Shown here piece by piece: positions 59,031-60,395 of a stretch of 64,000 nt of DNA. The translations under genes and the position numbers were made by a program. The number at the start of each line of letters is the position of its first letter. The first letter of the stretch is position 1. Under the pieces are notes generated by a model. The model saw nothing but the letters and a program-made list of their open reading frames with translations. It was not told the DNA's origin and made no database searches. Source of the stretch: Leifsonia shinshuensis (GTDB taxonomy: Bacteria; Actinomycetota; Actinomycetes; Actinomycetales; Microbacteriaceae); assembly GCF_014217625.1 (NCBI RefSeq), contig NZ_CP043641.1, positions 1,674,001-1,738,000 of the forward strand, given 5' to 3'.

Positions 59031-60395
59031 CTACTTCTTGTAGGTCACGATGTAGCCGATCTTCGAGGCGGAGCCGTCCTTGCGGATCAGCGAGGTCACG
59101 ATCTCGACGACGGCCTGGTGGCCCGGCTGCAGTCCCGGCGGCACGAACGCGTGGAACGCCTTCCGGTATTGCGGCGCCTGCGTGAACGGATTTCCGAGGG
59201 GGTCGACGTTCGGCAGGAAACCGCTGTCGGATTTGAAGATGGCCTTACCACGGAGCTCGCCGTCTCCGACAACGCTCTTCTGGCCGAGTACGACCCCGAT
59301 GGCCTGGGCCGGGTTGTTCACGGTCGCCCCGTTGAGCGTGAAGCTCTTCACGGTCACCTCGGTCTTGGTGTCCAGGTCCGTCCACGGCTGCGGGAAGCCA
59401 CCCGTGACGTACGCATCGCCCCAGATCGGGTTGCCGAAGTTGTTCTGGTAGTCCGTCTTCGAGTCGTTCAGGTGGAACCGGAGGTCGAGCCACGGGGTGT
59501 TGAGGGGCGGCCCCACGATGGGGACGTTGCCCTTCGGCCGGAACCAGCGGACGTTGGGGTCGCTGCCCTCCGGAGCCGTCGTCAGCCGCTCCCACTGAAC
59601 GGTGACAGGGACCATGCCGAACCCAGCCTCGATGAATCCGGGCTCTAGCGCCGTGAGGGACGCCGTCGCCGCCGCGTACTGGGGATGGCTGGAGCTCGCG
59701 ACCTGAATGGACCCGGTCACTTCGCCCGGCTGCGTCGCCTCGACGGTGAGCTCGAAGGCGTCTCCGGTCAGGACCGGTCCGCTCACGACACGGAACGCCG
59801 TGTCATCGCTGAAGCTCGCGGACAGCGTGAACCCGGACGGAGCCGTCCCACCATCGTGCGACACGGTGCCCGTGATCGTCGCCCACTCACCGGCGGGGAT
59901 GTCATAGGAGGGGGCGCCGAACTGGATCGTGCCCGCCCGCACGGGCGCGAGGGAGACCGGCACGCTGCCCGCGAGGTAGCTGCGGTAGTTCGGGCTCGAG
60001 ACGGTCAACGATGCGGGACCCGCACCCGCAGCGGCGGAGACGGTCAGCGAGAACGTGCTTCCGGAGACGGTCGGTCCGGCCTCCACCGAGTATCCGGAAC
60101 CGTTGGCGAACGCGCCGACGAGGGCGATGTCGGCCGGAACGGTCTCACCGGTCGCCGCCTGCAGCGTTCCCGTGATCTCGATCGAGCCCCCCGCGGGCAC
60201 CTCGTACGTGCCGCGATCGAACAGGATGCTGCCCAGCGGCGTGGACGTCGCGTGCGCCGGGGACGCTGTGGCCATGACGATGGCAGGGGCGGCCCACGCG
60301 GCGGTCTTCGCGACCGTGCGCCTACTTACGAGTGGTGTTGCGGGGGGGGGGGGGGGGGGGGGGGGGGGGGGGTAACGCCGTTCAAGAGATGGCAC
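59031..60395 (-). CDS. Tat-exported surface protein with poly-C(G) tract at the 5' end, probably phase-variable
   Basis: 454 residues if read from GTG 60395, which gives ten consecutive prolines and then VSRRTVAKTAAWAAPAIV, a Tat signal. The mature part has several beta-sandwich-like repeats (ILFDRGTYEVPAGGSIEITG, IQFGAPSYDIPAGEWATITG) and a distinct C-terminal 170 residues. That GTG overlaps the only ribosome-binding site (GAAAGG). By comparison with the paralogue at 58884 the true start should be TTG 60385, 9 bases after GAAAGG. In that frame the 31-base tract leads to a TAA after 19 codons, so the gene is off as sequenced. It would be on with 29 or 32 bases. Confidence 0.72.
   Translation of the reverse strand: MPSLERRYPPPPPPPPPPATPLVSRRTVAKTAAWAAPAIVMATASPAHATSTPLGSILFDRGTYEVPAGGSIEITGTLQAATGETVPADIALVGAFANGSGYSVEAGPTVSGSTFSLTVSAAAGAGPASLTVSSPNYRSYLAGSVPVSLAPVRAGTIQFGAPSYDIPAGEWATITGTVSHDGGTAPSGFTLSASFSDDTAFRVVSGPVLTGDAFELTVEATQPGEVTGSIQVASSSHPQYAAATASLTALEPGFIEAGFGMVPVTVQWERLTTAPEGSDPNVRWFRPKGNVPIVGPPLNTPWLDLRFHLNDSKTDYQNNFGNPIWGDAYVTGGFPQPWTDLDTKTEVTVKSFTLNGATVNNPAQAIGVVLGQKSVVGDGELRGKAIFKSDSGFLPNVDPLGNPFTQAPQYRKAFHAFVPPGLQPGHQAVVEIVTSLIRKDGSASKIGYIVTYKK
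60342..60372 (+). repeat. 31-bp homopolymeric G tract (poly-C in the coding strand)
   Basis: Thirty-one uninterrupted G residues lie between the start codon and the Tat signal of a surface protein gene. Tracts of this kind change length by slippage and switch genes on and off. The true length may vary within a culture and is hard to sequence. Confidence 0.9.

Follow-up and report, generated by a model that had tools for sequence, protein, structure and literature searches.

A homopolymer between the start codon and the Tat-type signal of an exported Ig-like protein gene of Leifsonia shinshuensis: a probable phase-variation switch

Organization of the tract gene and its product

The window, which is a stretch of 64,000 nucleotides of Leifsonia shinshuensis DNA (contig NZ_CP043641.1, positions 1,674,001 to 1,738,000), contains a variable locus between two conserved borders on the plus strand. 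One border lies at 55445..58008, which we take from the translation to be sdhA/sdhB, and the other is formed by the gene at 60583..61827, whose translation is presumably a membrane protein of the YhjD/YihY type. Between them, two genes with the same Tat-type signal are encoded on the minus strand. Translation and alignment identify the one at 58084..58884 as a paralogue of 266 aa with a GTG start and without a homopolymer tract. The other carries the tract, and its elements are arranged in the order of GAAAGG, TTG, AACGGCGTTA, C31, GCAACACCACTCGTAAGT, the Tat signal RRTVAKTAAWAAPAIVMATASPAHA and the exported part ending at 59031. The exported protein is translated from a frame of 434 open codons (59031..60335, minus strand) with a GC content of 0.889 at third codon positions, and so the gene downstream of the tract is otherwise intact, as it is in a contingency locus.

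The homopolymer occupies 60342..60372 and reads as G31 on the plus strand and as C31 in the direction of the gene. Exactly 31 G were counted in the window, in agreement with the first-pass annotation, and this exact length comes from one assembly; perfect homopolymers of at least 8 bases in or before a gene are the mark of contingency loci. The likely start codon is TTG at 60383..60385 on the minus strand (TTG AAC GGC GTT A-C31), which aligns with GTG AAC GGC ATT A-C14 of a sister species, G023. A ribosome-binding site motif read by eye, GAAAGG (60395..60400, minus strand), lies 9 nt upstream of TTG, and this spacing suggests that TTG 60385 is likely to be the start in use. Further upstream, the block GTTGTACATTT (60412..60422, minus strand), which the upstream alignment shows to be common to the tract gene of G023, may be the -10 region of a promoter, and a promoter scan of 58700-60700 detected no sigma-70 consensus site and no terminator.

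By frame arithmetic, the frame opened by TTG at a tract length of 31 is closed after 19 codons by TAA at 60326..60328 (minus strand). The Tat frame is one phase off the TTG frame, and the tract lengths that bring the two into register are 2 modulo 3, 29 and 32 among them. The earlier counts, a stop after 19 codons at 31 and the full protein at 29 or 32, were recomputed and are correct. Since the tract separates the start codon from the Tat signal, a change in its length moves the whole protein into or out of frame, and frame arithmetic from TTG shows the shift between a stop and the full product that characterises contingency loci.

An alternative start codon, GTG at 60393..60395 (minus strand), lies in the Tat frame at a length of 31, where it opens a frame of 454 codons, and overlaps GAAAGG; both properties had been pointed out before and were borne out by the frame arithmetic. 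Because this GTG is in frame at 31, the present state may be not fully OFF. It is also conceivable that expression is graded, with GTG 60395 and TTG 60385 covering two of the three phases and the tract length setting high, low or no expression. The frame of GTG agrees with such grading, but GTG has no visible ribosome-binding site of its own besides the one it overlaps, and in the Tat frame of G023 the interval from the last stop to the signal offers only CTG, and no ATG, GTG or TTG. Graded expression is therefore rather unlikely.

The Tat-type signal LVSRRTVAKTAAWAAPAIVMATASPAHA (60252..60335, minus strand) was recognised by eye from its RR and AxA motifs (SRRTVAK...AHA) and aligned with those of 11 relatives, with RR being invariant in all 12 aligned sequences; no NCBIfam model matched the signal. 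The structure model predicts two Ig-like beta domains at residues 35-230 (59646..60233, minus strand), with a mean pLDDT of 72-96 in the 10-residue blocks of residues 31-230, an overall mean of 66 and low confidence in the C-terminal half. The 50 Foldseek matches listed have TM scores of 0.15-0.33 on the query and include many unrelated Ig-like proteins such as adhesins, S-layer proteins and animal Ig, and so they name the fold class only. The mature part has no Pfam match at E 1, no NCBIfam match at E 0.1 and no PDB sequence match at E 1. The C-terminus is SKIGYIVTYKK and no LPXTG motif was seen by eye, which argues against sortase anchoring of the protein. The tract gene is thus taken to encode an exported protein with Ig-like domains, which may be an adhesin. 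It had been called a surface protein in the first-pass annotation, but the Tat-type signal and the lack of a visible LPXTG motif support only the term exported.

The database-predicted protein for the tract gene (P0001, 414 aa) begins inside the signal, and the export signal is consequently missing from the annotation, a warning that gene callers miss genes of such kind. A protein search, in which the 8000 best candidates were scored, gave 8 matches, one being the window's own protein and none being a copy from another strain, and a contig search for relatives of the tract protein found two distant ones, both in Leifsonia and one of them in Leifsonia sp. TF02-11, in a collection from which the window's own genome may be missing. 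Judged by eye, the 266-aa protein P0008, which comes from short contigs (the longest of 1509; sources lgn and ena), differs little from the paralogue at 58084-58884, suggesting that close relatives of the strain are present in public data. P0008 was rejected as another strain's copy of the tract protein because it is close to the neighbouring paralogue only.

Distribution of the tract in the genome and in Leifsonia

The tract is the sole G/C run longer than 9 in the assembly, and the second-longest G/C run of the window has a length of 6. The whole assembly of 4,608,984 bases contains 10 G/C runs of at least 8 bases (8, 8, 31, 9, 8, 8, 8, 9, 8 and 8), with none between 9 and 31. An independent-base model (34.5% for each base), which is crude because it ignores codon structure and serves as a yardstick only, predicts about 1212 runs of at least 8 and about 3e-8 runs of at least 31 per 4.6 Mb. 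The observation of 10 runs against about 1212 expected indicates that G/C runs are generally avoided and that the 31-base run stands alone. The run is not due to chance.

Long G/C runs are frequent among relatives, with lengths of at least 14 in 46 of 99 relatives' genomes and of at least 13 in 18 of 28 Leifsonia genomes. Many of those inspected look like assembly noise, and tract counts across relatives were dropped as evidence of switching. The long runs of several relatives lie in stretches of mixed G/C low complexity, some beside N or at contig ends (L055, L056, L062, L064-L066 and L070); they are probably assembly noise, and counts of long G runs in genomes of this kind are unsafe. The same could be suspected of the window's tract, whose true counterpart would then be absent or short, with the 31 bases arising from gap filling or poly-G read noise, and the extracts of a study of Bifidobacterium breve state that true G-tract lengths can deviate from the annotated ones (PMC9187656). 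However, the tract has clean flanks and lies well inside a contig of 4.44 Mb, and G023 has independent tracts at the same site, a coincidence of homologous codon positions that random error would hardly produce twice. An artefact of assembly or sequencing is therefore very unlikely, although 31 is long for a switch and may be an assembly length.

The genes sdhB and yhjD occur in the same order with a variable interval between them in all 28 Leifsonia genomes, and the interval ranges from 52 to 5950 nt in the 27 genomes besides the window's. Tat genes of the RR[TA]VA[KR]TAAWA type are found in the interval of 6 of the 28 genomes, namely the window's own (G000, 2 genes), G023 (3), G027 (2), G010 (2), G024 (1) and G026 (1), a count that other Tat signals could escape. 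Weak matches to a looser Tat motif in G011 and G002, one each, were dropped. G027 encodes a relative of the window's protein that is 45% identical and has no tract, and a further Tat-type gene of this genome lies beyond yhjD (L119 5715-6863). An 8-C run in a Tat-type gene of G008 (L086), by eye out of the Tat phase from the nearest ATG, was set aside as too short.

G/C runs of at least 8 in the sdhB-yhjD interval are confined to the window's genome and G023, with none in the other 26 Leifsonia genomes, and the presence of the tract in only 2 of 28 genomes speaks against a switch. The pattern of C9 within 30 bases 5' of such a Tat signal likewise occurs in the window's genome and G023 among the 28 Leifsonia. 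It was found in 1 of 398 genomes of the family and in 1 of 396 of the phylum, each time the window's own, in draws from which G023 is absent. The pattern is narrow, and these counts are lower bounds; a reversed control pattern gave zero matches.

G023 is a one-contig genome whose YhjD is 93% identical to that of the window. Its whole genome has two G/C runs of at least 13 (15 and 14), which lie 30 bases apart in one gene of the sdhB-yhjD interval, arranged in the order of GAAAGG, GTGAACGGCATTA, C14, 30 bases, C15, Tat signal and RCC1 repeats (PF00415, E 1.2e-37; PF25390, E 6.3e-53). Thus, one of the 27 other Leifsonia genomes has a tract at the same site, the conservation in relatives that is looked for in a contingency locus, and it has two. 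At the present lengths, the frame from GTG meets a stop between the tracts, and the 549 codons behind are intact with a third-position GC content of 0.923. Aligned with each other, the sequences upstream of the two tracts score 32, which none of 2000 shuffles reached (best shuffle, 30); a score of 32 was also obtained for 3 of 4000 pieces sampled from that stretch of G023, which may be draws overlapping the region itself. Among 9 tract-free relatives, the next-best upstream score is 20 with the window's gene and 17 with that of G023, and so the two tract genes match each other better than either matches any of these relatives. The alignment therefore argues for homology of the control region and of the tract site in the two species, whereas the exported parts belong to different families.

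The two genes have a common upstream region, start and first codons in front of RCC1 repeats in G023 and of Ig-like domains in the window. It is tentatively suggested, with somewhat more doubt than confidence, that these elements and the poly-C are co-inherited as a portable, switchable export leader, with the cargo being exchanged (Ig-like versus RCC1) in the hypervariable sdhB-yhjD locus. The two tracts of G023 in series would then act as a two-lock switch, in which both have to be in phase and ON would be rare.

Indel repair and possible tract instability in the genus

The genome of the window encodes NucS (E 2.5e-43), and a search for MutS domains found no canonical MutS in it; MutS_V matched two proteins, of 519 and 511 aa, which contain domain V and lack domain I, and a weak domain III is present in one of them. 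According to the extracts of PMC8228993, NucS cannot repair indels. Since NucS is present and described as blind to indels and canonical MutS was not seen, slippage is plausible. The same extracts suggest that in actinobacteria the PHP exonuclease of DnaE may prevent almost every short indel during replication (PMC8228993), which argues against easy slippage.

This repair background would also permit the neutral expansion of a repeat in a decaying gene, that is a pseudogene whose indels go unrepaired, and the closure of the frame from TTG at 31, as well as that of the RCC1 gene of G023, is in line with decay. However, the 434 and 549 codons behind the tracts are intact, with third-position GC contents of 0.889 and 0.923; the rest of the genome is free of runs of 10-30, and so expansion is not general; and two species have tracts at one site. 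Neutral expansion is therefore unlikely.

A difference in tract length has been found elsewhere in the genus. G004 and G021, two species, have in common a segment of 9354 columns, which reaches the edges of the compared stretches and may be longer, with one substitution and six gap columns. All 6 gap columns fall in one tract, C20A5 versus C16A3 (L131 5649-5668 and L132 4987-5002), which is evidence of tract instability in Leifsonia as far as assemblies can tell, an error in assembling the tract being also possible. The tract precedes a frame of about 1420 codons and is not clearly within a gene; the frame has a weak STAND-NTPase match below the cut-off (PF25199, E 7.9e-6), and that of G021 has no PADLOC match.

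Different lengths also bear on the possibility that RNA polymerase or the ribosome, rather than DNA polymerase, slips on C31/G31. Long homopolymers can cause such slippage, and some full-length protein would then be made in every cell, the length of the DNA being no switch. A DNA switch predicts the differing lengths (31; 14 and 15; C20A5/C16A3), but transcriptional slippage or ribosomal frameshifting also tolerates them, and they speak only weakly against this explanation, which is considered highly improbable.

Other tracts were noted in the genus. In G008 (C1, L129 1989-2011), C23 separates an acyltransferase-3-like half, recognised by eye in the frame 867-2057, from an SGNH domain (PF19040, E 3.1e-31), and its two halves do not share a frame. 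Phase variation of O-acetyltransferases is known from other bacteria, and Leifsonia thus seems to have a second contingency locus here. In G014, G23 lies within a NUDIX gene (L128 1967-1989) and is in frame as assembled. G018, with a genome of 2.58 Mb, has seven G/C runs of 13-20 (L121-L127), of which, by eye, one lies near the start of a glycogen-synthase-like frame and one directly before a NUDIX-like start.

A probable contingency switch and its relation to known systems

In Neisseria and Campylobacter, poly-G/C tracts in coding regions form contingency loci, in which slippage switches the frame of a surface or exported product. The tract of Leifsonia would follow the same slippage logic in unrelated genes and an unrelated phylum, and it is probably a slipped-strand contingency switch. 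DNA polymerase would slip on C31/G31 in replication and thereby gain or lose bases, and each change in length would open or close the reading frame of the exported protein as a whole, the likely TTG frame being presumably OFF in the sequenced state. As a result, cells of one clone would differ in the export of the Ig-like-domain protein. Length changes at the window's tract, ON/OFF expression and a benefit are all inferred. The proposal of a phase-variation switch in the first-pass annotation is partly supported, by the architecture, namely the clean start, the frame dependence, the intact frame and the two tracts at the same site in G023, once its surface protein is read as an exported protein.

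That annotation had also stated that few clear cases are known in Actinobacteria, which is only partly right, since extracts of published work describe such tracts in pili of Bifidobacterium breve (PMC9187656), in Gardnerella (PMC11287997) and in Mycobacterium tuberculosis (PMC11898584). In B. breve UCC2003, likewise an actinobacterium with a G-tract inside the gene of an exported protein, slippage fuses two frames of a sortase-dependent pilus gene or keeps them apart (PMC9187656, extracts). The tract of B. breve lies between the Sec signal and the LPXTG-bearing part of the pilin, whereas that of Leifsonia is 5' of a Tat signal in a gene without a visible LPXTG motif; and the range of lengths within a population was measured in B. 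breve, whereas the locus of Leifsonia is known from the sequence of one assembly. Gardnerella, another actinobacterium, has tracts of at least 8 in or near genes, some of them surface-protein genes, with medians of 20 G/C and 38 A/T tracts per genome in the extracted account (PMC11287997); for G/C alone, the median of 20 compares with 10 runs of at least 8 in the Leifsonia genome, one of which exceeds 9. M. tuberculosis, also an actinobacterium and described in an extract as being without MutS-MutL (PMC12892979), has frequent homopolymer indels and tracts at espR and espACD, which are regulatory according to the extracts of PMC11898584, whereas the tract of Leifsonia is coding.

A search of the open-licence literature on Leifsonia and Microbacteriaceae found no report of such a switch in Leifsonia, and none of the titles listed describes a homopolymer switch 5' of a Tat signal. 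Therefore, the kind is already known, and the case, the genus and the place before a Tat signal appear to be new within the literature searched. If true, the switch would add Leifsonia to the genera with homopolymer phase switching and tie such switching to Tat export, and it would provide a natural test of the behaviour of long tracts in bacteria whose NucS is described as indel-blind.
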